NCBI RefSeq assembly: GCF_018595675.2
Contig: NZ_CP092333.1
Location: 3,558,001 to 3,622,000, forward strand
Source of the DNA: Flavihumibacter fluvii
GTDB taxonomy: Bacteria > Bacteroidota > Bacteroidia > Chitinophagales > Chitinophagaceae
DNA: 64,000 nt
Direction of reading: 5' to 3'
Made by a program: the position numbers and the translations under genes. The notes below the pieces were generated by a model. It had not been told where the DNA came from, did not search any database, and was given only the letters and a program-made list of their open reading frames with translations. Positions 24,527 to 47,853 of this stretch are shown here, in pieces; the first letter of the stretch is position 1, and the number at the start of each line of letters is the position of its first letter.

Positions 24527-25438
24527 ATGAAAGTGCTGCAATTCACGATCCCGGTTCCTGGAGAAAAGAATATCATCGTACAAAAAGAAAGCCTCCCTTT
24601 CTTTTACCCGCATTTACACCGGCATGATGAGATGCAATTGACCTGGATACAGCAAGGCGAAGGGACCCTTGTTGTTGATAATAACATGCATCACTTCCGG
24701 TCTAATGAAATCTATTGTATTGGTGCAAACCAACCGCATGTATTTAAAAGTGATCCAGACTATTTTGATCCGGCGAATACGTTGCAGGTGCAATCCATGA
24801 CGATATTTTTTAACCCCAAGGGGAAACTGCAGAATATATTCGAACTGGCAGAGATCAAGGCAGTCAGGTCATTCCTGTTAAAACACCGGTCGGGGTTTAT
24901 GATACCGGAAGACAAGGTGGAAGAAGTTGCTGACCTGATGAATACGATCAGTGAACAAAACGGGTTGGAACAATTGATCTCCTTCCTTGAACTGCTGAAA
25001 AAATTCTGCAGCATTCCCCAGCTCAGGGAGTTATCGGCATTATCCGAAATGGACAGGGTCAGTGAACATGAAGGAATAAGGCTGGGGAATATATACAATT
25101 TCATCATGATGAATTATTCCCGGCAAATAACACTGGAAGATGTAGCCGCCCAGGCACATATGACACCGCAGGCATTCTGCCGGTATTTTAAGAAAAGGAC
25201 GCGGCACACTTTTGTGTCATTCCTGAATGAAGTGCGTATTAATGAGGCTTGCAAGAAGCTTACGGATGGTGGTTTTGAGAGTATTTCCACCATTGCATAT
25301 ACCTGCGGTTTCAACAGCATCACCAATTTTAACCGGGTATTTAAAACCATCACTGGGAAATCACCCAGCGAATATGTGGATGCATACCATACCAACACTT
25401 TTGAGACCACACCAAATCATTCGGTACTGGCCTATTGA
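24527..25438 (+). CDS. AraC-family transcriptional regulator with cupin sensor
   Basis: Protein of 303 residues. The N-terminal cupin-like sensor (about 15-85) has LHRHDEMQLTWIQQGEG and NQPHVF. The C-terminal AraC domain (about 195-290) has two helix-turn-helix units: LEDVAAQAHMTPQAFCRYFK and ISTIAYTCGFNSITNFNRVF, ending in GKSPSEY. Such regulators in Bacteroidota carbohydrate loci respond to a sugar. It is convergent with the GH127 gene (15 bases apart) and is the only regulator in the hydroxyproline/arabinose region, so control of that region is likely but inferred. Confidence 0.88.
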   Translation: MKVLQFTIPVPGEKNIIVQKESLPFFYPHLHRHDEMQLTWIQQGEGTLVVDNNMHHFRSNEIYCIGANQPHVFKSDPDYFDPANTLQVQSMTIFFNPKGKLQNIFELAEIKAVRSFLLKHRSGFMIPEDKVEEVADLMNTISEQNGLEQLISFLELLKKFCSIPQLRELSALSEMDRVSEHEGIRLGNIYNFIMMNYSRQITLEDVAAQAHMTPQAFCRYFKKRTRHTFVSFLNEVRINEACKKLTDGGFESISTIAYTCGFNSITNFNRVFKTITGKSPSEYVDAYHTNTFETTPNHSVLAY

Positions 25439-25453
25439 GCAAGCATCAGCCGG

Positions 25454-27865
25454 TTATTTTACGATCCATTCCTGGATGCCGGCTGAATGTTCTTTCGGCA
25501 ATTGGACTTCCAACCGCAGTGCATTGGTTTTTACCGGTTTGAAGTGAATGGTATCATACTGGTCTTTATGGATACCATAGTTCCCGGTCACTTCTACCGG
25601 TAACCATTGGTCGCCGTTTTTATACAGGAGTCTCCAGCTTTCCGGAATGGTGCAGCCACCGAATGGACTATCATCAAACCAATACACAGAAGACTGCCCG
25701 ATAGTGTAGGCCTGGTCAAAATCATATTGCACCCATTCAGCCGAATTTTGCTTCGGCCACCAATGGAGGAAAACAGCATTATGGTCATTCGAATTTTCCG
25801 GTTCATACTGGTCATTTAACCCTTTGAGCATCTTCTTGTTGCTTACGGAAGAACTGGCAATGCTTTTGGAGGCAATAGTAGGTGCAGGTTTTGGATGAGC
25901 AACCGATGCATTATAAGGGATCCACACTTCCATTTCACCTGCACCGCGGTTATTCCAGGAATAGTACGGTATTGCCTTAACGGTTTGTGCTGTCTGCAAT
26001 AAAACATCTGAATTCAATTGTCTCTTAGCCGAGGTTCCCCTGGCTGTTAATACCATTACGCCATTCAATAACTGGTTATTAAAACCTGCAGTAAACACTT
26101 CATCCTTATTCACCACAATATTCTGCACAGTACTATCCAGGTTATCGGGACCTTCCAGGCAATATACAAGCGGACCCCGCTCCAGGGCAAATTTTTGCCG
26201 GTCATCTTTAACTTTCTCATTAGCGATCACTTTCCTGATGTCCATGGGCAATTCAAGTTCAACCAGGTCGCCCTTTTTCCAGCTCCGCGTAATGACCAGG
26301 TACCCTTTTACCGGATCAGCAGTTATTAATTGTCCATTCAGTTTCAGGCGAACGGGTGCCTTTTTCTGGTCCATAAACTGGTAGAGGCTTCCGGGTACAA
26401 CATCATCCTGAGACCAGCCCGGCACCCTTACATGCAGGCTGAATTTTGCCGTGCGCTCGGGATTGATCCGCATACGTACCGTGCCTTTCCAGGGATATTC
26501 CGTCTCCTGGTCAATCGTCAGCTTGCCGGCGGGTAAGGTTATTTCTGCTGTATTGGCGACATACAGGTTCACATAAACATTATTCTGTTGCTGCGCGTAT
26601 ACATAACCGGGAACCGATGGCATGAACCTGGTCATATTTGAAATGCAACAGGCACAGCTGAACCAGGGACTACGCTGGTGCTGGCCCATGGAGGTCAGTG
26701 GATTGGGGTAGAAAAATTTATCGCCGCTCAAGGAAACACCAGATAATAATCCGTTGTATAAGATCCGTTCCAGAACATCCATATACTGTCCATCGCCGTT
26801 CATCAGGAACATGCGGCTGTTCCAATACACATTGGCAATAGAGGCACAGGTTTCTGCATAAGCCGACATATTCGGTAATTCATAAGCAGCCCCGAAAGCT
26901 TCACCATTTCCGGTTGCCCCGATTCCCCCGGTGAGGTATAATTTATGGTCCACCACATCCTGCCAGATATCGTTGATAGCGCCAATGTATCTTTTATCGC
27001 CCGTTAAAGCTGCCACATCAGCCATGCCAGTGTACATGTAGGCCGCACGAACCGCATGCCCAACTGCTTCGTGCTGGTCGGTCACCATTTTGTGCGACTG
27101 GCTGTATTCGGAACCTTTTATTTTCCCGTTACCCCTGATATCGAGGAAATATTTTGCGAGGTCGAGATAGGCCTGTTTTCCGGTGACCCGGTACATCCTG
27201 GCAAGACCCATTTCCACCACCTGGTGGCCCGGGAAATAAGGTGCTTTACCAATGCCAAAAACCTGCACCAGCAGGTCCGCATTCTTTATGGCAATATTCA
27301 AAAAGGATTTTTTCCCTGTGGCTAAATAATGCGCGACTGCAGCTTCATACAGGTGACCGGCATTATATAATTCGTGGCTGAGTTCCGGATCATATTCCCA
27401 GCGGTTCGGGCTGATCCATTCATGCAGCTTCCCGGGCTTCATGGTCCGGAAAGTGTAGAGGTAGCCATCCGGTTCCTGGGCATCACCAATAATGGCGATG
27501 AGGCTGTCCACCGTGAGGTCCATCGCCGGATCGGGTTTGACCTGCAGGGAATAAGAAATGCCCTCAATCAGTTTGTAGAGGTCTGAATCATCAAAAGGGT
27601 ATTCCGTAATTTTTCCGACAGGCATCTTACCCGCTGCTTTCAGGAAGTTATCGATACGCCCTGTTTCCCGGCATTTCTGCAGGGTATATGGAATGGTGAC
27701 CGTCCTGTTCGTTTCAATTTTTGGGGCCCAGAACTGATCATGCAAATGCACTTTGGTAAAAGGAACCGGCTGAATAGGATAATCGCCCCTGCCGGATTGT
27801 CCAACACTGATCAATTGCGACCCAATAAGAAAAGACGTGATCCCTGCGGACAAAGCTTTCAGCAT
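25454..27865 (-). CDS. GH127 beta-L-arabinofuranosidase-like enzyme (DUF1680)
   Basis: Protein of 803 residues with an N-terminal signal-like stretch. The catalytic (alpha/alpha)6 domain (about 35-440) carries the HypBA1 metal/catalytic set: Glu322 (GNGEAFG), Glu338 and Cys340 (AETCAS) and the pair Cys406-Cys407 (SCACC), which correspond to Glu322, Glu338, Cys340, Cys417 and Cys418 of Bifidobacterium HypBA1. Beta-sandwich domains follow, and the C-terminal 130 residues (from about 670) form a discoidin-like module. HypBA1 releases L-arabinose from beta-L-arabinofuranosyl-hydroxyproline chains. Nearby hydroxyproline catabolic genes support the same role here. Divergent from the Gfo/Idh gene. 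Confidence 0.9.
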   Translation of the reverse strand: MLKALSAGITSFLIGSQLISVGQSGRGDYPIQPVPFTKVHLHDQFWAPKIETNRTVTIPYTLQKCRETGRIDNFLKAAGKMPVGKITEYPFDDSDLYKLIEGISYSLQVKPDPAMDLTVDSLIAIIGDAQEPDGYLYTFRTMKPGKLHEWISPNRWEYDPELSHELYNAGHLYEAAVAHYLATGKKSFLNIAIKNADLLVQVFGIGKAPYFPGHQVVEMGLARMYRVTGKQAYLDLAKYFLDIRGNGKIKGSEYSQSHKMVTDQHEAVGHAVRAAYMYTGMADVAALTGDKRYIGAINDIWQDVVDHKLYLTGGIGATGNGEAFGAAYELPNMSAYAETCASIANVYWNSRMFLMNGDGQYMDVLERILYNGLLSGVSLSGDKFFYPNPLTSMGQHQRSPWFSCACCISNMTRFMPSVPGYVYAQQQNNVYVNLYVANTAEITLPAGKLTIDQETEYPWKGTVRMRINPERTAKFSLHVRVPGWSQDDVVPGSLYQFMDQKKAPVRLKLNGQLITADPVKGYLVITRSWKKGDLVELELPMDIRKVIANEKVKDDRQKFALERGPLVYCLEGPDNLDSTVQNIVVNKDEVFTAGFNNQLLNGVMVLTARGTSAKRQLNSDVLLQTAQTVKAIPYYSWNNRGAGEMEVWIPYNASVAHPKPAPTIASKSIASSSVSNKKMLKGLNDQYEPENSNDHNAVFLHWWPKQNSAEWVQYDFDQAYTIGQSSVYWFDDSPFGGCTIPESWRLLYKNGDQWLPVEVTGNYGIHKDQYDTIHFKPVKTNALRLEVQLPKEHSAGIQEWIVK

Positions 27866-28018
27866 AAAATTGGCGTTAACTGTTGAGGATAAATGTACGA
27901 CTGACGCTTACAACAATATTCACAAAATTTGACACTTGCTTATCGGATTTTCCCTTTTATCCGCATGGTAAGGATATTGTTAGTAAATTATCCGGAGAAA
28001 CGATTTAAACTGAATGCC

Positions 28019-29338
28019 ATGACAAATCATCGTCGGAAATTCCTTCGCACAACCGGTAGCCTGTTACTGGGATCAGCCGTCCTTCCAGCCATCGGGGCAG
28101 ACCTGTTAGCAGCATATCCCTCGCGGCTGGGCGCCGCAGACCGCCTGAATGTTGGTGTAATTGGCGTTAACGGCATGGGCTGGAGCGACCTGCAGGCCAT
28201 ACTGAAAATCGATGGGGTAAAATGTATCGCCCTATGTGATGTGGATGACAACGTGCTGCAAAAAAGGGCCGCAGAACTACAGAAGATCAACATGCCCGTA
28301 AAGACCTATAATGATTACCGGAAATTACTGGACAATAAGGAAGTAGACATTGTGATCATCGGAACACCAGATCACTGGCATTGCCTGATGATGGTCGCCG
28401 CATGTGCCGCCGGGAAACATGTGTATGTAGAAAAGCCTTGTGGTAATTCCATCACTGAATGCCGCATAATGGAAGAAGCCCAGGTGAAATACAAGAGCAT
28501 TGTGCAGGTTGGTCAATGGCAAAGAAGTGCCCCGCATTTCCAGGATGCCATCGCTTTTGTACACAGTGGGAAACTGGGAAATATCCGCACGGTAAAATCA
28601 TGGGCTTACATGGGCTGGATGAAACCGGTTCCGATTTTACCCGACGGACCTGTTCCGGCGGGAGTGGATTACAATACCTGGCTAGGGCCAGCCACCAAAC
28701 GGCCTTTCAATGCCAATCGTTTTCATTTCAATTTCCGCTGGTTCTGGGATTATGCAGGCGGACTGATGACCGACTGGGGCGTGCACATGATCGATTATGC
28801 CTTGCTGGGAATGAAGGCCGGCTTTCCCAAACAGGTCGTAGCATCAGGAGGCAAGATGGCCTACCCGGATGATGCTGCCGAAACACCAGATACGCTGACC
28901 ACTATTTACGAATACGAAAAATTCAACCTGGTCTGGGAACAAGCCACAGGCATAGACCTTGGCCCATTTGGATTGACCCATGGTACAGCATTCATAGGGA
29001 ACAATGGCACCCTGGTACTTAACCGTGAAGGCTGGTATGTGACTGCTGAAGGTGAAAAGATGCAGGCCGTGCCCATGCAAAAAGACCAGGGCAATTCACT
29101 GGTACGCCATATGCAGAATTTTGTGGATGCCATCCGCGCCGGCAATGGCAGCAACCTGCATACACCGATACAGGAAGCCTCCAAAACAGCACAGGTTTGC
29201 CAGTTGGGAAATATCGCTTTCCGCACCCGTGAAAAATTAAGCTGGAATGCTACGACCAATTCTTTTGATCTGGACGCCGCCAAAAAACTGATGACTGCAG
29301 GTTACCATAACGGGTACAGCCTTCCGAAACTGGGCTAA
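28019..29338 (+). CDS. Exported Gfo/Idh/MocA-family oxidoreductase
   Basis: Protein of 440 residues from the ATG at 28019, where a twin-arginine signal begins (NHRRKFLRTTGSLLLGSA). The Rossmann domain has VGVIGVNGMGWSD and the family motif VEKPCGN; the C-terminal substrate domain has NFRWFWDYAGGLMTDWG with HMIDY. Exported members of this family keep a tightly bound NAD(H) and act on sugars, often in glycan-utilisation loci. Divergently transcribed from GH127 across about 150 bases, and followed by a terminator. A sugar or sugar-derivative substrate is inferred. Confidence 0.87.
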   Translation: MTNHRRKFLRTTGSLLLGSAVLPAIGADLLAAYPSRLGAADRLNVGVIGVNGMGWSDLQAILKIDGVKCIALCDVDDNVLQKRAAELQKINMPVKTYNDYRKLLDNKEVDIVIIGTPDHWHCLMMVAACAAGKHVYVEKPCGNSITECRIMEEAQVKYKSIVQVGQWQRSAPHFQDAIAFVHSGKLGNIRTVKSWAYMGWMKPVPILPDGPVPAGVDYNTWLGPATKRPFNANRFHFNFRWFWDYAGGLMTDWGVHMIDYALLGMKAGFPKQVVASGGKMAYPDDAAETPDTLTTIYEYEKFNLVWEQATGIDLGPFGLTHGTAFIGNNGTLVLNREGWYVTAEGEKMQAVPMQKDQGNSLVRHMQNFVDAIRAGNGSNLHTPIQEASKTAQVCQLGNIAFRTREKLSWNATTNSFDLDAAKKLMTAGYHNGYSLPKLG

Positions 29339-29366
29339 TATGTAATTAATAGATGTCAATATTTAC

Positions 29367-29394
29367 AAAGCGATCACCTTAGCGTGATCGCTTT
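29367..29394 (+). terminator. Rho-independent terminator after the Gfo/Idh gene
   Basis: Perfect 11-base-pair stem (AAAGCGATCAC / GTGATCGCTTT) with a 6-base loop, followed by CATTTTAT on the plus strand. It lies 28 bases after the stop codon and 38 bases before the permease start, so the permease probably needs its own promoter or depends on partial read-through. Confidence 0.8.
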
Positions 29395-29431
29395 CATTTT
29401 ATATCTTACAGCAGCTGAAACCAACACAAAC

Positions 29432-30835
29432 ATGAGCGAGAGCAATTTTAAACCGACCCTGAGATTATTGGATGCAACGATGATCGTAGCCGGATCGATG
29501 ATCGGTTCCGGGATCTTTATTGTAAGTGCAGATATTACCCGCAATATCGGTGGCGCCGGATGGCTCATCGCCGTCTGGCTCATTACAGGATTCATGACCA
29601 TCACTGCTGCATTGAGTTATGGCGAACTGAGTGCCATGTTCCCAAAAGCAGGCGGGCAATATGTGTACCTGAAAGAAGCTTATAACCCATTGGTGGGTTT
29701 TTTATATGGATGGAGTTTCTTCGCGGTGATACAAACGGCTACCATCGCAGCTGTGGCCGTGGCGTTTGCAAAATTCACCGCCTACCTTTTTCCGGCCATC
29801 AGTGAAGACAAGGTAGCGCTGGACCTTGGTTTCATGACGATCTCACCGGCACAGCTTTTATCTATCGTGGTAATAGTGATCCTGACGGCGATCAATACCC
29901 GGGGCATTAAAAGCGGGAAATTGATCCAGACCACGTTCACCCTAACGAAACTATTCAGCCTGTTTGGTTTGATACTTTTCGGGCTGATGGCATTTCGGGC
30001 AGATGTATGGACGGCCAACTGGTCAAATGCCTGGGCGCTTCAGTCCAGGACACCAGCGGGGGTTTTAGGTGACTACACTTTATTTGCGGCATTAGGCGCT
30101 GTTGCTGCTTCCATGGTAGGCACCATATTCAGCAGTGATTCCTGGAACAATGTGACTTTCATTGCAGGAGAGATCAAAAATCCCCAGCGCAATATCGGCC
30201 TGAGCCTTTTCCTGGGAACCCTGATCGTTACCGTTATATATGTATTGACCAATGTGATGTATACGGCCGTCCTGCCTTTAAATGAAATTGCGGGAGCTGA
30301 AAAAGACCGGGTAGCTGTTACTGCGGCCCAGGTAATTTTTGGTCATGCAGGAACTCTGATCATTGCCATCATGATCATGATCTCCACTTTCGGTTGTAAC
30401 AATGGCCTGATCCTGGCAGGGGCAAGGGTGTACTATACCATGGCAAAAGACGGACTGTTTTTCAACAAGGCCGGAAGCCTGAATACCAATGGTGTACCTG
30501 CTTATGCATTATGGCTGCAATGCGTATTTGCCTGTGCCTGGAGCCTCAGTGGGAAATACGGGCAACTGCTGGATATGATCTCGTTTGTAGTGGTGGGCTT
30601 CTATATGCTCACCATTGCCGGAATATTCATCCTCCGCAAAAAAAGGCCCGATGCAGAAAGGCCCTATAAGGCATTTGGATATCCCGTGCTGCCCATAATT
30701 TATATTGTGATGGGACTAAGCTTCTGCATCTTACTGATCATTTTTAAACCTGCTTTTACCTGGCCCGGACTGATCATCACTTTATTGGGGATTCCAATTT
30801 ATTCGATGCTCCCGGGGAAGAAAACCGGCGCGTAA
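29432..30835 (+). CDS. APC-superfamily amino-acid permease
   Basis: Inner-membrane transporter of 467 residues from the ATG at 29432. The first helix has the APC substrate-binding stretch IVAGSMIGSGIFIVSADI, and about 12 helices follow. It resembles LAT-type exchangers and permeases. It is convergent with, and three bases from, the D-hydroxyproline dehydrogenase operon. Its position among hydroxyproline catabolic genes makes import of hydroxyproline or hydroxyproline-containing products a reasonable inference; specificity cannot be read from sequence. Confidence 0.85.
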   Translation: MSESNFKPTLRLLDATMIVAGSMIGSGIFIVSADITRNIGGAGWLIAVWLITGFMTITAALSYGELSAMFPKAGGQYVYLKEAYNPLVGFLYGWSFFAVIQTATIAAVAVAFAKFTAYLFPAISEDKVALDLGFMTISPAQLLSIVVIVILTAINTRGIKSGKLIQTTFTLTKLFSLFGLILFGLMAFRADVWTANWSNAWALQSRTPAGVLGDYTLFAALGAVAASMVGTIFSSDSWNNVTFIAGEIKNPQRNIGLSLFLGTLIVTVIYVLTNVMYTAVLPLNEIAGAEKDRVAVTAAQVIFGHAGTLIIAIMIMISTFGCNNGLILAGARVYYTMAKDGLFFNKAGSLNTNGVPAYALWLQCVFACAWSLSGKYGQLLDMISFVVVGFYMLTIAGIFILRKKRPDAERPYKAFGYPVLPIIYIVMGLSFCILLIIFKPAFTWPGLIITLLGIPIYSMLPGKKTGA

Positions 30836-30838
30836 TCG

Positions 30839-32080
30839 TTAAAACCGGTTAGGGTCAAAAGCTTCTATGGCAACAGACGTCTTTTGGTGGGAAGCAAGCT
30901 CAGCAACGAGTTTACCGGTAGCCGGCCCAAGGCTCAGGCCCATCATGGCATGCCCCCCGGCCACAATCAGGTTATCTAACGACTTTGCATAACCGATATA
31001 TGGCAGGCCATCCGGAGAACAAGGCCGGAAACCATACCAGACATCTTTTTTTTCAGGCATTGCCAGCTGCAGGTCGGGGAAATAGGCAGGTATTGACTCA
31101 ACAATCCCTTGTACGCGGGTCATATTAACGGTGTTATTCACCGGACCCAACTCCATCGTTCCACCATACCGCATCTTACCCGCCATGGGCGTAATAGCCA
31201 CCCTGGCCTCACATAAAATAGCAGGGATATTCAGGCTCTGCCGCGGTTGGTCAATCGTAAAAGAATAGCCCTTGCCCGGCATGATCGGAATACGCTGTCC
31301 GCATAAATGCATCAGCTCACCCAGCCAGGAACCGGCAGCAAAAACAAATACATCACCGCCAACCGACTGGTCGCCTAATTCAACAGCACTGATCCGGCCA
31401 TTATGGCGCTGGATATTTTTTACGGATTTACCGGTAAGTATCGTAACCCCACGTGCTATTAACAGCGCCGACAATTGCCTGTTGAGTTTGTTGGGATAAA
31501 GATGCGCATCACATTTATAATGAATAGCACCTAAAACATCCAGTTTGATGCCTGGTTCCAGCAACTGTGCCTGGTCTTTGCTGAGGGTATCCACATCCAA
31601 CCCCATTTTCCGTGCCTTTTCAGCAAGGTGTATTTCTTCTTCAGCTGTTTTATGGTCCCTGAAATACATCAGGATGCCTTTCCGTTCATAGCTGAAATCA
31701 AATCTAGGTAGGGCCTTCAACGATTCGTAAAGGGAGCGGCTCAATAAATTGATATCCCTTAAGTAAGGGCCTGCCTTTTCTACTTTTGAGGCGGTGGCAC
31801 TTTGCTTGAATTTTAATCCCCAGGAGACCAGGTTCCAGCTTAATGATGGCTTTACATAAAAAGGGCTTTTCTCATCGAACATCCAGCGAATGCCCTGTGA
31901 GATAATACCCGGGGCAGCCAATGGTACAAAATGACTGGGCACGATCATGCCGAGGTTGCCATAGGAGCAATTATCGGATAAATCGGACCGGTCAATCACA
32001 GTTACTTCATAACCGGCTTCCGACAAATAATAAGCACTGCACAACCCAATGATCCCTCCGCCTATAATGACTGCTTTCAT
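30839..32080 (-). CDS. D-amino-acid dehydrogenase, likely cis-4-hydroxy-D-proline dehydrogenase
   Basis: FAD enzyme of 413 residues of the DadA/glycine-oxidase superfamily: N-terminal GGGIIGLCSAYYLS, and C-terminal YGFRPCSPDGLPYIG and GGHAMMGLSLGPATG. In the epimerase route of hydroxyproline degradation a DadA-like enzyme oxidises cis-4-hydroxy-D-proline to 1-pyrroline-4-hydroxy-2-carboxylate. It lies in one operon with the next two enzymes of that route (5-base gap to the aldehyde dehydrogenase), which makes the assignment strong. Other D-amino acids remain possible. Confidence 0.88.
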   Translation of the reverse strand: MKAVIIGGGIIGLCSAYYLSEAGYEVTVIDRSDLSDNCSYGNLGMIVPSHFVPLAAPGIISQGIRWMFDEKSPFYVKPSLSWNLVSWGLKFKQSATASKVEKAGPYLRDINLLSRSLYESLKALPRFDFSYERKGILMYFRDHKTAEEEIHLAEKARKMGLDVDTLSKDQAQLLEPGIKLDVLGAIHYKCDAHLYPNKLNRQLSALLIARGVTILTGKSVKNIQRHNGRISAVELGDQSVGGDVFVFAAGSWLGELMHLCGQRIPIMPGKGYSFTIDQPRQSLNIPAILCEARVAITPMAGKMRYGGTMELGPVNNTVNMTRVQGIVESIPAYFPDLQLAMPEKKDVWYGFRPCSPDGLPYIGYAKSLDNLIVAGGHAMMGLSLGPATGKLVAELASHQKTSVAIEAFDPNRF

Positions 32081-32085
32081 AAATT

Positions 32086-33684: not shown

Positions 33685-34606
33685 GCGTTTTTAAATGTAA
33701 GTAATCAGGCAAAACAGGGCGAACAGCGAGTGCATCATGAATGGTTTTCAAAACAGTGGTTCTTTCATCGCCCGTTAATACCAGGCGTGGTGCCCGAACA
33801 TATTCACTGCCGATGCCTGTTATGCTGGCAGCCAGTTTTATGTACTGCACCAGTTTCGGTTGGATATCCAGTTCAAGCAATGGCATGAACCACCTGTAAA
33901 TCGCCAGTGCTTCCTGGATCCGGCCGGCTTTCACCAACCTGAAAATGGCCACGGTCTCTGCAGGGAATGCATCCACCAGTCCGGCTACCCAGCCATCAGC
34001 ACCCACTACCAGGCTCTCCAGCGCAACCGGATCAACTCCGGTCAGGATCTTATAACGATCTCCGAATCGGTTGATCATCCGTGTTATATTCATGGTATTT
34101 CTCGTCGATTCCTTTACTGCCTCTATGTTCTTGCAAGGTAACATTTGTTCAAACATATCCAGTGTGATCTCGATCTTATAATCTACCGGATTATTGTACA
34201 ATAAAATCGGAAGTGATGTTTTATTGGCAACATCCATAAAAAAGCGGACGGTTTCCTCATCAGAAGCTTTATATCGCATGGGTGGCAGGAGCATCAGTCC
34301 GTCTGCACCATTGGCCTCTGCCTCTTTAGCCTGGTCAATAGCTTCTTTAGTACTTTGTTCGGCAATATTGACGAGTACCGGGAAACCGGCGTCGGCAATT
34401 TCTTTTGAATAAATCAACAACTCTTTTTTCTCCTGGCGCAACAATGTGCTGGCTTCTCCCAATGATCCGCCAATAATTACGCCATCAACACCTGCAGCAA
34501 TCTGAGCATCCAGGTTAATTTTATACATAGAAAAATCGACCTGCCCATTGTTATCAAACGGGGTCAATAAGGCCGGATAAACGCCACTCCAGTTAATTGT
34601 TGCCAT
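33662..34606 (-). CDS. DapA-family 1-pyrroline-4-hydroxy-2-carboxylate deaminase
   Basis: Class I aldolase-fold enzyme of 314 residues of the dihydrodipicolinate synthase family. The Schiff-base lysine is Lys165 (EAVKEST) and the conserved tyrosine Tyr137 (LLYNNP); GGSLGEASTL corresponds to the carboxylate-binding loop. In hydroxyproline operons this family member deaminates and dehydrates pyrroline-4-hydroxy-2-carboxylate to 2-oxoglutarate semialdehyde. First gene of the three-gene catabolic operon. DHDPS-like or keto-deoxy sugar aldolase activity is an alternative that the neighbours make unlikely. Confidence 0.88.
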   Translation of the reverse strand: MATINWSGVYPALLTPFDNNGQVDFSMYKINLDAQIAAGVDGVIIGGSLGEASTLLRQEKKELLIYSKEIADAGFPVLVNIAEQSTKEAIDQAKEAEANGADGLMLLPPMRYKASDEETVRFFMDVANKTSLPILLYNNPVDYKIEITLDMFEQMLPCKNIEAVKESTRNTMNITRMINRFGDRYKILTGVDPVALESLVVGADGWVAGLVDAFPAETVAIFRLVKAGRIQEALAIYRWFMPLLELDIQPKLVQYIKLAASITGIGSEYVRAPRLVLTGDERTTVLKTIHDALAVRPVLPDYLHLKTHADANWA

Positions 34607-34716: not shown

Positions 34717-34719
34717 ATT

Positions 34720-36456: not shown

Positions 36457-36544
36457 CGTGATGGTGTTTGTTGATTCAATATATACTAAACGACTCATCC
36501 GGAGATGAGTCGCCATTAACAATCCGAAAAACTGCCAAACAAGC

Positions 36545-37939: not shown

Positions 37940-37960
37940 GATAATTCAATTTTTACACCA

Positions 37961-40900: not shown

Positions 40901-40987
40901 CTGCAGCATCTTGGTTTGTGCGTTGACCATTAGGCAGGCTATTGCCATAAGGGTGGTCAGTATGACCCTTTTTAGTTGTAGTATCAT
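37961..40987 (-). CDS. SusC/RagA-family TonB-dependent outer-membrane receptor
   Basis: Protein of 1008 residues from the ATG at 40987 (an upstream TTG gives 8 more residues but breaks the signal peptide pattern). Signal peptide to about residue 24, carboxypeptidase-regulatory-like domain (LQGKILDKNGAPISAATV), junction LEEVVVTALG, plug (NALAGKVAGMQI, IRGTTSIYGDNQALIVVDG, VNVLKGAAATALYGSSG) and barrel ending RSVNFSVRVSF. About 125 residues shorter than the other SusC in this window. First gene of the SusC-SusD-DUF885 operon; imports the ligand captured by SusD. A TAnnTTTG match (TAAGTTTG, 41009-41016) lies just upstream. Confidence 0.95.
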   Translation of the reverse strand: MILQLKRVILTTLMAIACLMVNAQTKMLQGKILDKNGAPISAATVKIKNTTVGASTANDGTFSLPYSGNATLVVSSLGFKEQEIVLNGQTDISISLSNTSAQLEEVVVTALGVKREKRNLTYSTQEVKGDELLKTKEPNVVNALAGKVAGMQITSSSGTPGASSRIVIRGTTSIYGDNQALIVVDGVPVNNDETGNLYSGPGTNRLADIDPATIESVNVLKGAAATALYGSSGARGVVMITTKTGSVNRKPTVTFSSDLSFEKPLTPEIQTRYGQGLGGQYYNGEDQKTSGVWGPLMDTLTIDGKPAPRYDQNDLFFQTGVTSNNSVSVSGGGAASSYYMSYSYFDQKGTIPNSDYKRHSFFTKFTNKITDKLTSTIQVTYSGSESNRTPEGYVLESPIWTIYTAPVSWNPLPYLNEDGTQRVYRFSRNNPYWVLDNINLSATVNRVIPVMTFNYNPTNWLTITERLGADIYSEQAKYVEAPSSALASVGHIIDQNTNFRQFNNDFIVNAHKEFGKFNTNLLLGSNMLSTYSQYYRGNGLGTSIDDFTNISNASTITYSESNYTQRKVGFYLQANIDYNRFLNLSLTGRYDGSSVLSKENSFYPYGSAAASFIFSEFLGERTRTWVDLAKLRVSYATVGNDQVGPYALQTPYSSASVGTITFPFQGQSGFLLSSNLGNPNLKNERLNEFEVGFEGRFFRNKLGIELSYFDKQTIDGIIPGVLVSAASGYSSTTINSAKLENKGIELLVNATPVRTSRFSWDVAFNYSRIRNKVLAINDESNPPIEQLGNGFTQVIKGEPYGVKFGGRFARAADGQLLIGDDGLPFRDANDGIIGNITPDWMAGINNIFRYGPFSFSFFFDMKMGGDIENNVDGYGYFYGTPKATEDRDDRIVPGVKASDGKVNDISVTGQDYWRRLNSITEAVIQDGTYVKLRNVSLSYEFPKKMLQKSFVKGLNFSVTGRNLWIYSPHFTGADPEVSSFGSSNGAQGIYSFSTPTSRSVNFSVRVSF

Positions 40988-41146
40988 AAGCAGTGTTTTC
41001 CGTTCTTTCAAACTTACCGTGAAATACTGCCGGGCTATTTATTTGATTTAGCTGATACTTTACATATATTAACCCATCCGAAATGCTTACCGGCAGGGAT
41101 TATTGTTTTTTATACATTTAATAGAAGAAGGGAAAGAGGGAATAGG

Positions 41147-41181: not shown

Positions 41182-41261
41182 CTAAAATTTGTAAAGAAAT
41201 CACTAATTGATGGTAGGTACTATTTGCTATTCTCAATTACCTTCGAACCAATGCAGCTACC

Positions 41262-42263
41262 ATGAAAAAAACATTCTTTTGTATTGATGCACATACCTGT
41301 GGCAACCCTGTCCGGCTGGTTGCCGGAGGCGGGCCAGTCCTTACCGGGAATTCCATGAGCGAGAAAAGGCAGGACTTCCTGAAAAACTTTGACTGGATCC
41401 GGAAGGGACTCATGTTTGAGCCCCGTGGCCATGACATGATGAGCGGTTCTATTTTATATGCACCGCATGATCCGGCCAATGATGTGGCAGTACTGTTTAT
41501 TGAAACAAGTGGTTGTTTGCCGATGTGCGGTCATGGGACCATCGGCACCATTACTATCGCTGTAGAGGAAGGCCTTATCATTCCGAAAACACCGGGCGTT
41601 ATTCGTATGGAAGCGCCGGCCGGACTCGTGAACATTTCTTATACACAGGAAGGTCCTAAAGTAAAATCGGTGAAGCTGACAAATGTTCCCGCATACCTGG
41701 AGGCCACTGAGCTAACTGCAGACTGCCCTGAATTGGGTGAACTGGTTGTTGATGTTTCCTATGGAGGCAACTTTTATGCTATCGTGGATGTGCAGAAAAA
41801 TTTCGCCGGACTCGAACATTACTCTGCAGATAAGCTCATCGCGTGGGCCCGGGTATTACGGCAACGCATCAACGAAAAATATACTTTTATCCATCCTGAA
41901 AACCCAACCATTAACGGGTGCTCGCATATACTCTGGACCGGGGCTGTATTGAACCCGTCATCTACGGCGCGCAATGCCGTGTTTTATGGTGACAAAGCGA
42001 TCGACCGTAGTCCATGTGGCACAGGCACCTCTGCCCGGATGGCCCAATGGTACACCAAAGGACTACTGAAAAAAGGCGACCGTTTTATCCATGAAAGCAT
42101 TATCGGTTCTACGTTCATCGGTACTATTGAAGAAGAAACCAGCGTTGCCGGGAAACCCGCTATCCGCCCCGGCATTGAAGGCTGGGCGAGGGTTTACGGC
42201 TACAATACCATTTCCATTGACCCGGAGGACGACCCATATGCTTATGGTTTCCAGGTTTTATAA
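41262..42263 (+). CDS. 4-hydroxyproline 2-epimerase (proline racemase family)
   Basis: Cofactor-free epimerase of 333 residues. Both catalytic cysteines are present: Cys89 (MCGHGTIG) and Cys252 (SPCGTGTSAR). This separates it from trans-3-hydroxyproline dehydratases of the same family, in which the first Cys is replaced by Thr. It converts trans-4-hydroxy-L-proline to cis-4-hydroxy-D-proline, the first step of the route completed by genes at 30839-34606. Proline racemase is an alternative, but the neighbours argue for hydroxyproline. Followed after 10 bases by a GH127/GH146-type gene. Confidence 0.92.
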   Translation: MKKTFFCIDAHTCGNPVRLVAGGGPVLTGNSMSEKRQDFLKNFDWIRKGLMFEPRGHDMMSGSILYAPHDPANDVAVLFIETSGCLPMCGHGTIGTITIAVEEGLIIPKTPGVIRMEAPAGLVNISYTQEGPKVKSVKLTNVPAYLEATELTADCPELGELVVDVSYGGNFYAIVDVQKNFAGLEHYSADKLIAWARVLRQRINEKYTFIHPENPTINGCSHILWTGAVLNPSSTARNAVFYGDKAIDRSPCGTGTSARMAQWYTKGLLKKGDRFIHESIIGSTFIGTIEEETSVAGKPAIRPGIEGWARVYGYNTISIDPEDDPYAYGFQVL

Positions 42264-42273
42264 TACTTACTAC

Positions 42274-44628
42274 ATGAAAAGAATTCTCTGCCTGCTATTG
42301 GCTGTACCATTATTTAATACCGTGCTTCAGGCGCAATCCTATATCCCTGTTAAAAATGATACGCGTTTTAAGGTGCGGCCGGTTGTTCCCATCAAAGCGT
42401 ATGGCTTCGACCTGAAAGATGTGCGGATGGGTGATGGAAGTCCATTGAAGAACGCGATGGATAAAGACGCTGCGTATCTCTTATACCTCGACCCCAACAG
42501 GTTGCTGAACCGGTTTTATACAAATGCCGGCTTACCTGCCAAAGGGGATAAATACGGCGGCTGGGAAAGTGAGTCCCTATCCGGACATACCCTTGGCCAT
42601 TACCTGTCAGCCATCAGCATGATGTATGCCTCAACCGGAAATATCGAATTCAAAAAACGGGCAGATTATATTGTTGCTGAACTGGCGCGTTGCCAGCAAG
42701 CCAGGGGAACAGGTTATGTGGGTGCCATACCCGGCGAGGACAGCGCCTTTGGTAAAGTATCCAGGGGTGATATTAAAACAGGCGGGTTCGACCTGAATGG
42801 ACTTTGGTCGCCCTGGTATGTGGTGCATAAAGTAATGGGCGGATTAGTGGATGCCTATTATTATACCGGCAACCAACAAGCGATAAAAGTTGTGGTGGGT
42901 ATGAGCGACTGGACTGCAGGGATATTGAAGAACCTGAATGAAGAACAATTGCAAAAAATGCTGCGTTGTGAATATGGTGGCATGAATGATGTACTGGTGC
43001 AGGTGTATGCAATCACTGGCGATAAAAGGCACCTGGCCACTTCCTACAAATTCTATGATGATTTTGTAATGGCGCCATTATCAAAACAAATCGATCCCCT
43101 GCCCGGAAAACACAGTAATACCAATGTGCCAAAAGCCATCGGAAGCGCTGCCCAGTATGATTATACCGGTAACAAAGGCGACCAGACCATTGCTTCATTT
43201 TTCTGGAATACCATGGTGCATCACCACAGTTATGTCATCGGCGGGAACAGCAATTATGAGTACTGCGGCGAGCCGGACAAACTAAGCGACAGGCTGAGTG
43301 ATAATACCTGCGAAACCTGCAATACCTATAATATGCTGAAGCTGACCCGGCACCTGTTTTCCTGGTCACCATCGGCCAGACTGGGTGACTATTATGAGCG
43401 GGCATTGTACAATCATATCCTGGCTTCGCAAAACCCGGATGATGGTATGATGTGTTATTTTGTGCCGTTGCGAATGGGTACAAAAAAGCAGTTTTCTGAT
43501 TCATTGAATACCTTCACCTGTTGCGTGGGCAGTGGCATGGAAAACCATAGTAAATATGGCGAGGCCATTTATTATGAAGGCGCGGATGGCAGCCTGTTCG
43601 TGAACCTTTTTGTTGCATCAACACTGAACTGGCGGGCGAAGAAAATAAGCATCCGCCAGGAGACCAGCTTCCCGGCAGGTGACACAGTTAATTTCACGAT
43701 CCAATCAGCAGCAGTTACACCCTTTACTCTGAAGCTCAGGAAACCAGGTTGGTCGGGCAGCACAACTGTCCGGGTCAATGGGCAACCCGTTACTACCACA
43801 ACAGATAGCGATGGGTTCCTCGAGATCAATCGCAACTGGAAAAATAAGGACCGGGTACAATTGATCGTATCGAAGGCCTTGTACACAGAGGCGATGCCGG
43901 ATAACCCCAATCGTATTGCCATATTGTATGGACCATTGGTATTGGCCGGCGCCCTGGGCAATACCATGCCCGATCCGGTATTTGGCACACCGGTTCTTTT
44001 AACTGATGATAAAAATGTTCAGAACTGGATCAGGCCGGTAGCTAACCAACCGCTGCATTTTGATATGGTGGGCGTAGGCAAACCGAAGGATGTGCAACTG
44101 GTGCCTTTTTACCAGATGTACAAGGAATATTATAGCGTCTACTGGGATTATTTCACCAATACCGACTGGATCTCAAGGCAGGCAGAATATGAGGCCGATA
44201 AAAAGCGCCGCCAGCAAATCGAAGCACGGACCATTGATGTATTCCGCATAGGTGAAATGCAACCGGAGCGGGACCATAACCTGGTGGCCAGTGAAAAAAG
44301 TTATGTGAGTGATGCTATCGGGATCAATGGCCGTGAAGTAAGGGCAGGTGGATACTTTTCGTTTGAAATGACAGTAGATCCGAAATTGGAGAATAGCCTG
44401 CTGCTGACCTATATAGGCGATGATAAGGACCGCAAGTTTGATATCCTGGTTGATGGGGTATTGATCCGCACGGAAGAACTTACTGGTGGAAAAACCGGTA
44501 AGTTTTACGACCGTGAGTATGCGATCCCCATAGCCGTTATCGGGGAGAAGAAAAAAGTGACTGTCCGCATAGAATCAAACTATGGCAAGACGGCGGGCAG
44601 GGTATTTGGCGTAAGGGTGGTGAAGTGA
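42274..44628 (+). CDS. DUF1680 beta-L-arabinofuranosidase-like enzyme (GH146/GH127 type)
   Basis: Exported protein of 784 residues from the ATG at 42274, where a signal peptide begins (MKRILCLLLAVPLFNTVLQA). Catalytic domain about 40-450 with the metal/nucleophile set Glu347 and Cys349 (CETCNTYN) and Cys416-Cys417 (TCCVGSGMENH); the CC-V-G-x-GMEN pattern is closer to GH146 than to HypBA1-type GH127. Beta-sandwich domains follow, with a C-terminal module of about 110 residues (DAIGINGREVRAGGYFSFE onward). These families hydrolyse terminal beta-L-arabinofuranosides. Co-transcription with the hydroxyproline epimerase (10-base gap) points to arabinosyl-hydroxyproline as substrate. Confidence 0.88.
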   Translation: MKRILCLLLAVPLFNTVLQAQSYIPVKNDTRFKVRPVVPIKAYGFDLKDVRMGDGSPLKNAMDKDAAYLLYLDPNRLLNRFYTNAGLPAKGDKYGGWESESLSGHTLGHYLSAISMMYASTGNIEFKKRADYIVAELARCQQARGTGYVGAIPGEDSAFGKVSRGDIKTGGFDLNGLWSPWYVVHKVMGGLVDAYYYTGNQQAIKVVVGMSDWTAGILKNLNEEQLQKMLRCEYGGMNDVLVQVYAITGDKRHLATSYKFYDDFVMAPLSKQIDPLPGKHSNTNVPKAIGSAAQYDYTGNKGDQTIASFFWNTMVHHHSYVIGGNSNYEYCGEPDKLSDRLSDNTCETCNTYNMLKLTRHLFSWSPSARLGDYYERALYNHILASQNPDDGMMCYFVPLRMGTKKQFSDSLNTFTCCVGSGMENHSKYGEAIYYEGADGSLFVNLFVASTLNWRAKKISIRQETSFPAGDTVNFTIQSAAVTPFTLKLRKPGWSGSTTVRVNGQPVTTTTDSDGFLEINRNWKNKDRVQLIVSKALYTEAMPDNPNRIAILYGPLVLAGALGNTMPDPVFGTPVLLTDDKNVQNWIRPVANQPLHFDMVGVGKPKDVQLVPFYQMYKEYYSVYWDYFTNTDWISRQAEYEADKKRRQQIEARTIDVFRIGEMQPERDHNLVASEKSYVSDAIGINGREVRAGGYFSFEMTVDPKLENSLLLTYIGDDKDRKFDILVDGVLIRTEELTGGKTGKFYDREYAIPIAVIGEKKKVTVRIESNYGKTAGRVFGVRVVK

Positions 44629-44634
44629 CGCGGA

Positions 44635-46824
44635 TTATTTTGTTTCAGGCAATGCAAATGCGATGAATTTATCCCCGGATTTACTGCCGATTTTTCCACC
44701 GCCACAGGCAATGACCACAAACTGGCGACCATCAATAGCATAGGTAGCCGGGGTTGCATACCCGGGAACAGGCAAGTCTGCTTCCCACAGCACTTTACCG
44801 GTCTTTTTATCGAAGGCCCTTATTTTGGCATCCTTTGATGCAGCAATAAAAACCAGTCCGCCTTTAGTCACCAATGGGCCGCCATACCCTTCAGTGCCGG
44901 TTGGCGGAATACCTTTACCGGTAAGTTCTTTAAACTCCCCTAAAGGCACTTTCCATAACAATTTCCCTGTATTCAGGTCCACTGCGTTCAGCGTGCCCCA
45001 GGGCGGTTTGATACCAGGATAGCCATTCTTATCATAAAACCGGTTATAGCCGGTCATGGTATAGGGTACTTCATCCAGGATACTTTTCTTTCCCTTTTCA
45101 GTACTAACCGCACCCGGTTCTTTATCCGGGAGATCAAGCAAAAAAGCCAGCAATGCTTTTTTCTCGCCTGCGCCAATCTGTTTGAATGCGGGCATCATGT
45201 TCTTCCCATTTGTAATGATCTTACCGGCCTCCTCTTCAGTATATTTTTTGTCCAGGTTAAGTAGCGACGGATAGCTCGGGCCATTCCCCTTCAAATCTGC
45301 CCGATGGCAGGACAGGCAATATTTTCCATAGACTTCTTTCCCGATCCTTTTCAATGAAGCATCACTGTGCTGCGCCGGCACATCGATCATGGTTAAGGCC
45401 CAGGGCAATTCAGTACTATTAACATACAGGATCCCTGATTCCGGGTCAACAGCGGCACCGCCCCATTCACCGCCGCCATCGAAGCCCGGGAAAACCCAGG
45501 AACCCTCTTTAGCGGGAGGTGAAAACAACTGGCGATGCTTGATTTTATCGTAGCTGGCCTTTAGCTCTTCATAGGTTTCAGGGAATAAGGTATTCAATTC
45601 ATCAGGCCCAAAATTTTGCCGGGCAAAAGGCTCAGGTAAAGTAGGTATAGGTTGGGTAGGCCAGGCCTCTTCGCCAGGCAGGTCGGAAGCCGGCACTTTT
45701 ATTTCCTCGATGGGAAATACCGGTTTTCCGTTAACGCGGTCAAATAAAAATATATAGCCATGTTTTGTGATCTGCGCAACTGCATCAATATTTTTTCCAT
45801 CGTGTTTGATCGTAACAAGATTTGGGTTGGCAGGCAGGTCCCGGTCCCAGAGGTCATGATGAATGGTTTGATAATGCCACAGGTATTTCCCCGAAGCAGC
45901 ATCCAGTGCGACCAGGGAATTTCCAAACAAATTAGTACCCTTCCGGATACCGCCATAAAAGTCACCGGCAACCGAGCCAGTCGGAACATATACGATCCCT
46001 CTTTTCTCGTCCAGGGACATACCCGCCCAATTATTAGCGCCGCCCAATTTTTTCCATGCTTCGCGATCCGGCCATGTTTCATAGCCAAATTCCCCGGGTT
46101 GCGGGATGGTGTGAAAAATCCATTTACGTTGTCCGGTAACTATGTCGAAAGCCCTGATATGGCCGGGCGCGGCATCAGCCGATTCAGCCACCCTTGTCCC
46201 GATGATCAGTAGATTGTTGAACACTATACCGGGCGTGGTGCCTGCCACATAAGGGTTAAAGGTTTCGGGATCACGATCCAGGTTTTCCGTGAGGTCAATG
46301 AAGCCCTGCTTACCAAAGCTCCTGACCGGTTGTCCATTTGCTGCGTGGATGCTCCAGGTTTTTGCACCAACACTATACAGGATCCGCTTGTCCTTCCCTG
46401 AACTATCCTGCCAGTACATTACACCCCGGCTAACTTTAAAGAAAGCAAAGGGATCGTTCTTTGAAGCAGTATCCTCAGTTGCAGGGTCAAAGACCCATTT
46501 TTCCTTTCCGGTAACAGCATCCAACGCAAACAATTTCATTTTAGGGGAGGTGCCGTATAAAATGCCATCCACCACAATCGGGTTGCACTGGTTCTGGGTG
46601 CGGTTGCCGGTATCCTTATCATTAGAACTATATTCCCAGGCCACCTTCAGTTGCGCGACATTTTCAATGTTTATACCTGTATTGGATGAGTACCTGCTGC
46701 CGTCCTTCGATCCGGCATAGGCGGTCCAGCCGCTATAATCAGTTTTAGGCGGTTGCTCACTGCAGGAATTTAGCAATAACAAAATAACAAGCGGCATTAC
46801 AGCCACGATACTATTCATTTTCAT
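44635..46824 (-). CDS. PQQ-dependent dehydrogenase lipoprotein with inserted cytochrome c domain
   Basis: Quinohaemoprotein-like protein of 729 residues. The lipobox LNSCS (Cys21) anchors it in the periplasm. An eight-bladed PQQ propeller is marked by LFALDAVTGKEKWVF, WHYQTIHHDLWDRDLPANP and, near the C-terminus, NAVDLNTGKLLWKVPLG. A cytochrome c domain with CLSCH (503-507) is inserted between blades at about 490-575 instead of being terminal; its likely Met ligand is in KNMMPAF. This architecture occurs in quinoprotein glucose-dehydrogenase-like enzymes that oxidise aldoses or alcohols. Convergent with the GH146-type gene (6 bases). Oxidation of released arabinose is an inference. Confidence 0.85.
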   Translation of the reverse strand: MKMNSIVAVMPLVILLLLNSCSEQPPKTDYSGWTAYAGSKDGSRYSSNTGINIENVAQLKVAWEYSSNDKDTGNRTQNQCNPIVVDGILYGTSPKMKLFALDAVTGKEKWVFDPATEDTASKNDPFAFFKVSRGVMYWQDSSGKDKRILYSVGAKTWSIHAANGQPVRSFGKQGFIDLTENLDRDPETFNPYVAGTTPGIVFNNLLIIGTRVAESADAAPGHIRAFDIVTGQRKWIFHTIPQPGEFGYETWPDREAWKKLGGANNWAGMSLDEKRGIVYVPTGSVAGDFYGGIRKGTNLFGNSLVALDAASGKYLWHYQTIHHDLWDRDLPANPNLVTIKHDGKNIDAVAQITKHGYIFLFDRVNGKPVFPIEEIKVPASDLPGEEAWPTQPIPTLPEPFARQNFGPDELNTLFPETYEELKASYDKIKHRQLFSPPAKEGSWVFPGFDGGGEWGGAAVDPESGILYVNSTELPWALTMIDVPAQHSDASLKRIGKEVYGKYCLSCHRADLKGNGPSYPSLLNLDKKYTEEEAGKIITNGKNMMPAFKQIGAGEKKALLAFLLDLPDKEPGAVSTEKGKKSILDEVPYTMTGYNRFYDKNGYPGIKPPWGTLNAVDLNTGKLLWKVPLGEFKELTGKGIPPTGTEGYGGPLVTKGGLVFIAASKDAKIRAFDKKTGKVLWEADLPVPGYATPATYAIDGRQFVVIACGGGKIGSKSGDKFIAFALPETK

Positions 46825-46926
46825 GACCCCTAATGTAACAATTTAAGGTGGGTTCCATTAGCGGCTACGGGTATACGTGTAGTGCGTATATTTGGAACGG
46901 GCTGGACAAATCCACCCTTTTATCGC

Positions 46927-47853
46927 ATGAACAAGTGGAGCCTATTGCTTTCTTTTTTGTTGCCGGCATTCGCCCATGCGCAACAAGACAGTGTATACCT
47001 CTTTTCCTATTTCAAAAATAATGGTGAAGACGGGCTGCACCTCGCCTATAGTGAAGATGGGCTGCAATGGAAAGCATTACATAATGACCAGTCGGTGCTA
47101 CAGCCGAAGGTGGCGAATGACAAACTCATGCGGGATCCCTGCATCATCAGGGGCCATGACGGACAGTTCCATATGGTTTGGACGGTGAGCTGGAAAGACC
47201 GGGGTATAGGTTATGCATCATCAAAAGATCTCCTCCATTGGAGTGAACAACAGTTCCTGCCGGTAATGGCAAAAGAGCGCACTGCAGAAAATTGCTGGGC
47301 CCCTGAAATTTTCTATGACGCGGCGAACCGGCAATACATCCTATACTGGTCTACCACCATCCCCGGCCGCTTTCCCGAAACAGCCGGCCGTGGGGATAAT
47401 AACCACCGGATCTATTATGTAACGACTTCAGATTTCAAACAGTATAGTGATACCAGGCTTTTGTATGACGGGGGATTCAATGTGATAGATGCCACTATCC
47501 AAAAATCCGGCGATACTTACCTGATGTTTGTAAAAGATGAAACCCTGAAGCCAGCCCCGCAGAAGAACCTGCGGCTGGTAACCAGTAAAAAGGCAACAGG
47601 CGGGTATTCCGCTGCTTCAAAACCGATCACCGGTAATTATTGGGCAGAGGGACCCACTGCGCTGTATATAAAGGGCCGCTGGATCGTTTATTTTGATAAA
47701 TATACCCTGCACCAATATGGTGCTGTTGCATCCACCGACCTGGTGAACTGGTCGGATATTTCAAGCGAGGTCAGTTTTCCGGACGGTGCCAGGCATGGAA
47801 CAGTGCTGGCTATTTCAAGGGCTGAACTGGACCGGCTCCGCAAGGGATTCTAA
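46927..47853 (+). CDS. GH43-like exported beta-propeller glycosidase
   Basis: Protein of 308 residues from the ATG at 46927, where a signal peptide begins (MNKWSLLLSFLLPAFAHAQ). Five-bladed propeller features of GH43/GH32-clan enzymes: LHLAYSEDGLQWKAL, MRDPCIIRGHDGQFHMVWT (general-base-type Asp), WAPEIFYD and WAEGPTALYIKG (acid Glu). GH43 members are often arabinosidases or xylosidases. It overlaps the end of the convergent DUF4386 gene by 4 bases. It extends the arabinose theme of the region but is at its edge; exact specificity is unknown. Confidence 0.8.
   Translation: MNKWSLLLSFLLPAFAHAQQDSVYLFSYFKNNGEDGLHLAYSEDGLQWKALHNDQSVLQPKVANDKLMRDPCIIRGHDGQFHMVWTVSWKDRGIGYASSKDLLHWSEQQFLPVMAKERTAENCWAPEIFYDAANRQYILYWSTTIPGRFPETAGRGDNNHRIYYVTTSDFKQYSDTRLLYDGGFNVIDATIQKSGDTYLMFVKDETLKPAPQKNLRLVTSKKATGGYSAASKPITGNYWAEGPTALYIKGRWIVYFDKYTLHQYGAVASTDLVNWSDISSEVSFPDGARHGTVLAISRAELDRLRKGF

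Follow-up and report, generated by a model that had tools for sequence, protein, structure and literature searches.

Bacteria degrade trans-4-hydroxy-L-proline (Hyp) by means of four enzymes, 4-hydroxyproline 2-epimerase (HypE), a D-Hyp dehydrogenase, a pyrroline-4-hydroxy-2-carboxylate (Pyr4H2C) deaminase and 2-oxoglutarate semialdehyde dehydrogenase (KGSADH), Hyp being converted via Pyr4H2C and 2-oxoglutarate semialdehyde into 2-oxoglutarate. Polysaccharide utilisation loci of Bacteroidota comprise a SusC/SusD pair, a regulator and glycoside hydrolases with signal-like N-termini. The locus described in this work lies in a stretch of 64,000 nucleotides of Flavihumibacter fluvii, a member of the Chitinophagaceae (the window, positions 3,558,001-3,622,000 of a single-contig genome of 5.00 Mb) and resembles both systems: it holds genes for all four steps of the pathway but joins them to SusCD and arabinofuranosidases, and it has the components of a utilisation locus but also catabolic genes for the amino acid of the glycoprotein backbone. 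In Bifidobacterium longum, where import is by an ABC system instead of the SusCD of the window, the enzymes HypBA1 (GH127), HypBA2 (GH121) and HypAA (GH43) of the hyp cluster strip hydroxyproline glycans of their beta-L-arabinofuranoses and of the alpha-arabinose at the end; the excerpts of PMC7263609 and PMC6085000 used here describe this cluster as a source of arabinose and name no hydroxyproline catabolism. Xanthomonas euvesicatoria (XeHypBA1, XeHypBA2 and XeHypAA) likewise acts on arabinosylated hydroxyproline with GH146 and GH43 enzymes and has, next to XeHypAA, a gene for a prolyl oligopeptidase (PMC6085000, PMC10850190), whereas it differs from the window in that this peptidase gene is called a pseudogene (PMC6085000), SusCD is lacking and neither "catabol" nor "TonB" occurs in the text of PMC6085000.

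We consider it probable (roughly 77%) that the locus serves the utilisation of arabinosylated hydroxyproline glycopeptides of the extensin type, from plants or green algae. This reading is drawn from gene content, gene order, conservation, co-localisation and catalytic motifs, and the activities, substrates, cellular locations and regulation mentioned below are predictions from them. A first-pass annotation of the same DNA had proposed a locus for extensin-like glycoproteins; the proposal holds at the level of arabinosylated-hydroxyproline glycopeptides, whereas the word extensin is narrower than the evidence. It had also stated that it did not know the system as a described Bacteroidota utilisation locus; in searches of open-licence PMC papers (preprints excluded), no account was found of such a locus in which GH127/GH146 is combined with the breakdown of hydroxyproline. 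The portions of PMC8424115 and PMC11321411 considered contain nothing on such a locus, and the nearest in silico idea, GH127 acting on extensin, comes from Latescibacteria single-cell genomes, as outlined in PMC4454575. Every enzyme family involved except DUF885 is known, and the joined, conserved system is, as far as the open PMC papers searched show, undescribed for Bacteroidota.

The link between HypE and genes of the DUF1680 family, to which two predicted arabinofuranosidases of the window (GH127a and a GH146-like enzyme) belong, is beyond chance. HypE was present in 94 of 195 genomes of the bacterial family, 60 of which were chosen for the counts (all but one of the 34 left out were in ≥100 contigs); the gene lists of DUF1680 and of the control GH78 comprised 150 matches each, so that counts are lower bounds. 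A DUF1680 gene occurred near HypE in at least 24, 26 and 29 of the 60 genomes at 5, 10 and 20 kb, respectively, vs. 0.28, 0.56 and 1.12 genomes expected from random placement and maxima of 5, 6 and 8 in 200,000 simulations. By hand count, 16 genera were represented among the 24 genomes with a DUF1680 gene within 5 kb, and the 31 DUF1680 genes at this distance included 26 on the strand of HypE. The control, GH78 rhamnosidase, was found within 20 kb of HypE in none of the same 60 genomes among the matches listed; these counts together with the control ruled out a chance neighbourhood. In the class, HypE was detected at E ≤ 1e-80 in 40 of 395 genomes (five from the family of the window), and outside the family 7 of 35 HypE-positive genomes, from two families by hand count, had DUF1680 within 10 kb (G258, G305, G366, G394, G468, G489 and G550; G and L numbers denote genomes and loci). 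The association of HypE with DUF1680 is hence not confined to the family.

A second set comprised the best 80 of 590 HypE loci (named loci), which are therefore close to the query HypE; it overlaps the genome set (at least L036 = L121, L054 = L122 and L033 = G008) and is not independent of it. Among the clusters accompanying HypE were the FAD-dependent D-amino-acid dehydrogenase (DAO, 62/80), aldehyde dehydrogenase (ALDH, 58/80) and the DHDPS-family protein (58/80), and those of the AraC regulator, the permease and the MocA-like protein appeared in 21, 6 and 5 of the 80 loci, respectively. DUF1680 was present in 25 of them, all 30 genes sharing HypE's strand. The same-strand run of HypE included DUF1680 in 21 of 79 named loci, making it the commonest gene after the four of the pathway; a pairing of DUF1680 with genes for other sugars in place of hydroxyproline genes, which would have spoken against the extensin-like proposal, is not what these runs display.

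The genes of the locus, called from open reading frames (ORFs) and Pfam/NCBIfam profile searches of window proteins, are the following (window coordinates).

24527-25438, plus strand: AraC-type regulator (PF12833, PF02311)
25454-27865, minus strand: GH127a (DUF1680), predicted beta-L-arabinofuranosidase (PF07944, PF20736, PF20737)
27929-29338, plus strand: GFO/IDH/MocA oxidoreductase (PF01408)
29384-30835, plus strand: amino-acid permease, predicted inner-membrane hydroxyproline uptake (PF13520)
30839-32080, minus strand: DAO, predicted cis-4-D-hydroxyproline dehydrogenase (PF01266)
32086-33684, minus strand: ALDH, predicted KGSADH (PF00171)
33662-34606, minus strand: DHDPS-family protein, predicted 1-pyrroline-4-hydroxy-2-carboxylate deaminase (PF00701)
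34720-36555, minus strand: DUF885 protein, predicted (hydroxy)proline-peptide peptidase, signal-like segment by eye (PF05960)
36545-37939, minus strand: SusD-like_2 outer-membrane lipoprotein (PF12771)
37961-41011, minus strand: SusC-type TonB-dependent importer (TIGR04056, 660 bits, cut-off 368)
41262-42263, plus strand: HypE (NF010578, 583 bits, cut-off 376)
42274-44628, plus strand: GH146-like enzyme (second DUF1680), predicted beta-L-arabinofuranosidase (PF07944, PF20736, DUF4986, DUF6805)
44635-46824, minus strand: PQQ/cytochrome c dehydrogenase, between the GH146-like and GH43-like genes
46882-47853, plus strand: GH43-like, predicted alpha-L-arabinofuranosidase (PF22847, 40.5 bits, cut-off 27)

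All genes named in the first-pass annotation were recovered with the families it had given; the PQQ/cytochrome c dehydrogenase gene was not among them. For the second DUF1680 gene the presence was borne out, whereas the listed ORF start at 42091 had to be abandoned since it overlaps HypE; the likely start is the ATG at 42274, 10 bp past the HypE stop, with a signal-like peptide by eye. The genes form two compact units, one on the minus strand with gaps of 21 (SusC-SusD), -11 (SusD-DUF885), 113 (DUF885-DHDPS), -23 (DHDPS-ALDH) and 5 bp (ALDH-DAO), and one on the plus strand (HypE, 10 bp, GH146), placed back to back across 250 bp; the permease, the MocA gene, GH127a, AraC and the GH43-like gene lie on their outer flanks. 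SusC and SusD being 21 bp apart, with GH146, GH127 and GH43-like genes near, the arrangement is that of a Bacteroidota polysaccharide utilisation locus. No ABC transporter family was found by Pfam among 40 window proteins, unlike in the Bifidobacterium hyp cluster, and the match of the HypBA2 (GH121) model was confined to the F5/8 domain in GH127a (19.7 bits; NCBIfam, 20 window proteins). Neither was araBAD found among the 40 window proteins scanned; araA is located at 4.055 Mb of the same genome. Among the named loci, the closest HypE relative was that of Flavihumibacter profundi (92%), in whose locus L032 HypE, GH146 and GH43 are successive with 13 bp gaps and the PQQ dehydrogenase gene is missing at the same place, so that this gene was either inserted in the lineage of the window or lost in L032. 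In a further genome of the genus (G179; L114:7969-11253), the GH146 and GH43-like enzymes are fused in one ORF of 1095 residues right behind HypE.

HypE presented the motifs MCGHGT and SPCGTGT, whose two cysteines are the active-site residues of 4-hydroxyproline 2-epimerase, and the predicted dehydrogenase, deaminase and KGSADH genes accompany it in the locus. The DHDPS-family protein scored under the cut-off of dapA, and the best PDB matches of the ALDH were 1EYY and 3V4C. Because none of the curated models shown exceeded its cut-off with DAO, DHDPS or ALDH, the exact steps of these three proteins are given as predictions; together they would carry out the conversion of the epimerised Hyp to 2-oxoglutarate. 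In several Hyp loci, relatives of the AraC regulator are transcribed divergently from the deaminase gene.

Both DUF1680 proteins of the window are predicted to be beta-L-arabinofuranosidases. GH127a matched PDB 6EX6 at 51% and 4QJY at 46% over the printed alignment stretches, with the residues ETC 338-340 and C406/C407 conserved with respect to both structures, and displayed a C-terminal F5/8-type domain and, by eye, a signal-like N-terminus; for the GH146-like enzyme the best PDB match was 5OPJ (481 bits, 44% over the printed stretch). The Glu-x-Cys that binds zinc and the Cys pair of the nucleophile were retained in both enzymes and in 49 of 50 HypE-near DUF1680 rows (plain text match, two genomes being in the set twice), a cysteine being the nucleophile in this enzyme type (PMC10728902, in part). 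Cleavage of Araf-beta-Hyp by GH146 members of Xanthomonas and Bifidobacterium is recorded in the section of PMC10850190 consulted. A role of GH127a as aceric acid hydrolase on rhamnogalacturonan-II was discarded, since model NF049879 gave 476 bits (102 bits with the GH146-like enzyme) for a cut-off of 950. The GH43-like protein reached 89 bits with the model of alpha-arabinofuranosidase BAD_1527 (NF052546), under its cut-off of 500.

The two enzymes behaved differently in trees, for which 60 DUF1680 genes (59 labelled far from HypE and one near) were picked by hand as comparison set. In the GH146 tree (54 rows), a clade of 27 with support 94/81 (99/94 for 26 of these) comprised the window enzyme, 19 of the 21 HypE-near rows and 8 others, four of which stand beside genes of Hyp loci: DHDPS-DUF885 (G071 and G150), ALDH and permease (G065), and AraC and permease (G127). 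In the GH127 tree (61 rows), the near label needed 10 changes vs. 20.0 in shuffles, and the window GH127a grouped with three relatives of the same genus. Relatedness alone can produce such clustering of labels. From these trees, the GH146 clade looks dedicated to hydroxyproline loci, GH127a less so.

The DUF885 protein, which carries HHELxAGH and EGW motifs, is predicted to be a peptidase for (hydroxy)proline peptides. Of the 60 genomes, 13 had DUF885 no more than 10 kb from HypE, and in four genomes it was within 10 kb of DUF1680 yet with no HypE in 25 kb; two of these four (G071 and G150) had a hydroxyproline-type DHDPS gene adjacent. An assignment as peptidase by fold was given up because the search matched only DUF885 structures at E ≤ 0.001, oligopeptidase 4PUT being at rank 8 with a non-significant E of 0.82. 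In L127 (G106) the DUF885 gene adjacent to HypE spans two frames, which may reflect a disrupted gene or a fault of the assembly. As for the MocA-like protein, it gave 172 bits with NF058561, under the cut-off of 750, and in some loci (L070 and L073) its relatives separate HypE from GH127. This weak likeness to a glycoside 3-dehydrogenase family may point to oxidative glycoside cleavage.

Gene orders were collected from named loci and from further loci picked for holding DUF1680 or DUF885, and are therefore examples, not frequencies. The loci differ but draw on a common parts list. Thus, L051 reads DHDPS-ALDH-HypE-DAO-DUF885-S9-GH146-GH127; HypE and DAO flank GH127 and GH146 in L047, L060 and L073; Mucilaginibacter loci read GH127-GH27-DHDPS-ALDH-HypE-DAO; and L054 (= L122) reads HypE-GH127-GH51-aminopeptidase P, with DUF885, DAO, SusC and SusD a few kb ahead. 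In L123 (G018), an SSF sodium symporter-araA-araD-araB group with AraC is divergent from DHDPS-ALDH-HypE-GH146-DAO-M24 (aminopeptidase P)-x-GH127, and L210 (G187, same genus) has a like arrangement without GH146, its araD being recognised by resemblance only. In L124, SusC (cut at the end), SusD, GH127, DUF885, GH146 and S9 converge on DHDPS-ALDH-HypE-DAO, whereas L131, from another family, reads DHDPS-ALDH-HypE-DAO-permease-S9-GH146-like-DUF885 with SusC/SusD adjacent, its GH146-like protein carrying a laminin-G domain. In 37 loci with both HypE and DUF1680 (two of them included twice), a further 95 ORFs lie no more than 3 kb from either; a census of these gave GH27 (9), GH51 (6), aminopeptidase P (5), S9 (3), M1 (3) and M28 (2), taken from the 25 most frequent of 60 families. 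By hand count, 5 of 70 genomes had GH27 at up to 10 kb from HypE; for GH51 the number was at least 3, the best 150 matches of PF06964 omitting at least the GH51 of G106. All 12 GH27 copies of Hyp loci that were long enough had Asp-Asp at the specificity position (two fragments were too short); Asp there marks GH27 alpha-galactosidases, characterised arabinopyranosidases having Ile or Glu (PMC4598101, in the part seen), so that alpha-galactosidase is preferred and the beta-L-arabinopyranosidase suggested by a Chitinophaga pinensis paper was rejected. GH51, GH27, aminopeptidase P, S9 and araBAD, all of them partners to be expected from the extensin idea, are thus present in the loci of relatives.

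In extensin, Ser-Hyp repeats bear chains of beta-arabinofuranose on Hyp, with a cap in alpha-1,3 linkage, and the serine is galactosylated (PMC7933510, PMC6085000, from the portions consulted), and each of these linkages can be answered by the parts list since GH146/GH127, GH43/GH51 and GH27 are present among the loci. In the proposed working, SusC/SusD would bring glycopeptides into the periplasm; a GH43- or GH51-type enzyme would take off the terminal alpha-L-arabinofuranose, GH127a the beta-linked arabinofuranoses and the GH146-like enzyme the last arabinofuranose on hydroxyproline; DUF885 would cleave the peptide, with S9, M24 or M1 peptidases in relatives. The permease would then import hydroxyproline, to be converted to 2-oxoglutarate by HypE, DAO, the predicted deaminase and the ALDH, and the freed L-arabinose would enter arabinose catabolism, whose araA is elsewhere in this genome but adjoins the locus in a single related genus. 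We lean somewhat towards the wider claim that Bacteroidota possess a widespread modular system using both halves of extensin-type glycoproteins, including a dedicated GH146 clade and a clade of DUF885 hydroxyproline-peptide peptidases. If so, one linked set would provide import, removal of alpha- and beta-arabinose and of serine-bound galactose, peptide cleavage and catabolism of hydroxyproline and, in some cases, arabinose. Hydroxyproline-rich glycoproteins are abundant in plant and green-algal walls and their whole recycling by microbes is little known; a conserved locus for glycan removal and hydroxyproline catabolism would be a direct genetic handle on that flow of carbon and nitrogen. Substrates are also predicted from it for the GH146 clade and for DUF885, which has solved structures but counts as a family of unknown function, and the locus occurs in cultured type strains such as Flavihumibacter profundi KCTC 62290, Ilyomonas limi, Chitinophaga japonensis and Mucilaginibacter gilvus.

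Several observations weigh against this interpretation. No DUF1680 was found within 10 kb, among the matches listed, in 34 of the 60 HypE-positive genomes of the family, nor near HypE in 28 of the 35 genomes of the class outside it, which indicates that the hydroxyproline pathway also works without DUF1680. In G008 and G108, of the same genus as the window, no GH146 accompanies HypE and GH127a is ~12 and 16 kb off. The two HypE-near GH146 rows outside the Hyp-linked clade are one in the clade of 5OPJ (1 near and 19 far rows) and that of L131, a lone long branch. The wider GH127a clade is mixed with GH51/GH97 loci without Hyp genes, and in six genomes (G114, G185, G172, G067, G085 and G162) relatives of GH127a have GH51 and sometimes also GH97 as neighbours, hydroxyproline genes being absent from the 19-20 kb covered. 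The solved structure nearest to GH127a is 6EX6, which we take to be BT3674, an arabinogalactan enzyme. GH43-like relatives were within 10 kb of HypE only in G000, G179 and G009 among the matches listed, the others lying elsewhere, and a general GH43-HypE linkage was therefore rejected. The DUF885 model (mean pLDDT 83.5) matched at E ≤ 0.001 only DUF885 structures of unknown function. Finally, the window locus has no GH27, S9 or M24 gene, and no GH27 match was found in its own genome at E ≤ 1e-20.

With regard to the origin of the glycopeptides, extensin proper is the likely source, over arabinogalactan protein or algal glycoprotein. That the same machinery serves a different source in place of land-plant extensin, with the arabinosylated hydroxyproline coming from the walls of green algae or from signalling peptides secreted by plants, is unlikely, even if lakes or groundwater appear in several locus titles, hydroxyproline-rich glycoproteins occur in green-algal walls (PMC4454575, excerpt) and plant CLE peptides bear the same inner arabinoses (PMC7933510, excerpt); GH27 and terminal alpha-arabinofuranosidases suit the Ser-Gal and the fourth arabinose of extensin, although they are compatible with algal glycoproteins too. 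Quite unlikely is an arabinogalactan protein (AGP) as target, with arabinose trimmed from type II arabinogalactan and hydroxyproline obtained from the AGP core. Such proteins bear hydroxyproline likewise, and 6EX6 is presumably BT3674, as said above. BT3674 is tied to arabinogalactan and works with exo-galactanases (PMC10850190, in part). Against this, no beta-galactanase family appeared among the 25 commonest of the 60 census families and the GH27 copies have Asp, vs. the Ile or Glu of characterised arabinopyranosidases (PMC4598101, in part). That two unrelated neighbours, general use of hydroxyproline (from collagen or as free amino acid) and removal of pectin or arabinan side chains, simply adjoin is very improbable. 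In favour of it, HypE is often without DUF1680, a B. thetaiotaomicron GH146 enzyme is part of a rhamnogalacturonan-I locus (PMC10850190, in part) and the aceric acid hydrolase model does match GH127a at 476 bits, but its cut-off of 950 was missed, co-localisation was at least 24/60 vs. 0.28 expected and 0/60 for listed GH78 matches, Hyp genes flank DUF1680 on both sides in same-strand runs and the GH146 clade is separate.

Some further features were observed around these genes. Sister-type loci with GH127a-GH51 pairs and no hydroxyproline genes in the stretch were seen in L117, L118, L198, L200, L202 and L203, some of them with GH97, SusC-like genes, S9, M1 or DUF885. DUF5695 proteins of ~900 amino acids were recurrent near GH146, GH127 or hydroxyproline genes (L129:13065-15803, L195 and L200), and GtaA six-hairpin/DUF5127 proteins were found beside GH127 in L069, L070 and L205. 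In the window itself, a second SusC-like/SusD-like_2 pair with a gene of the Asparaginase_2 family is located at 7756-13901 on the minus strand and may import amino acids or peptides.

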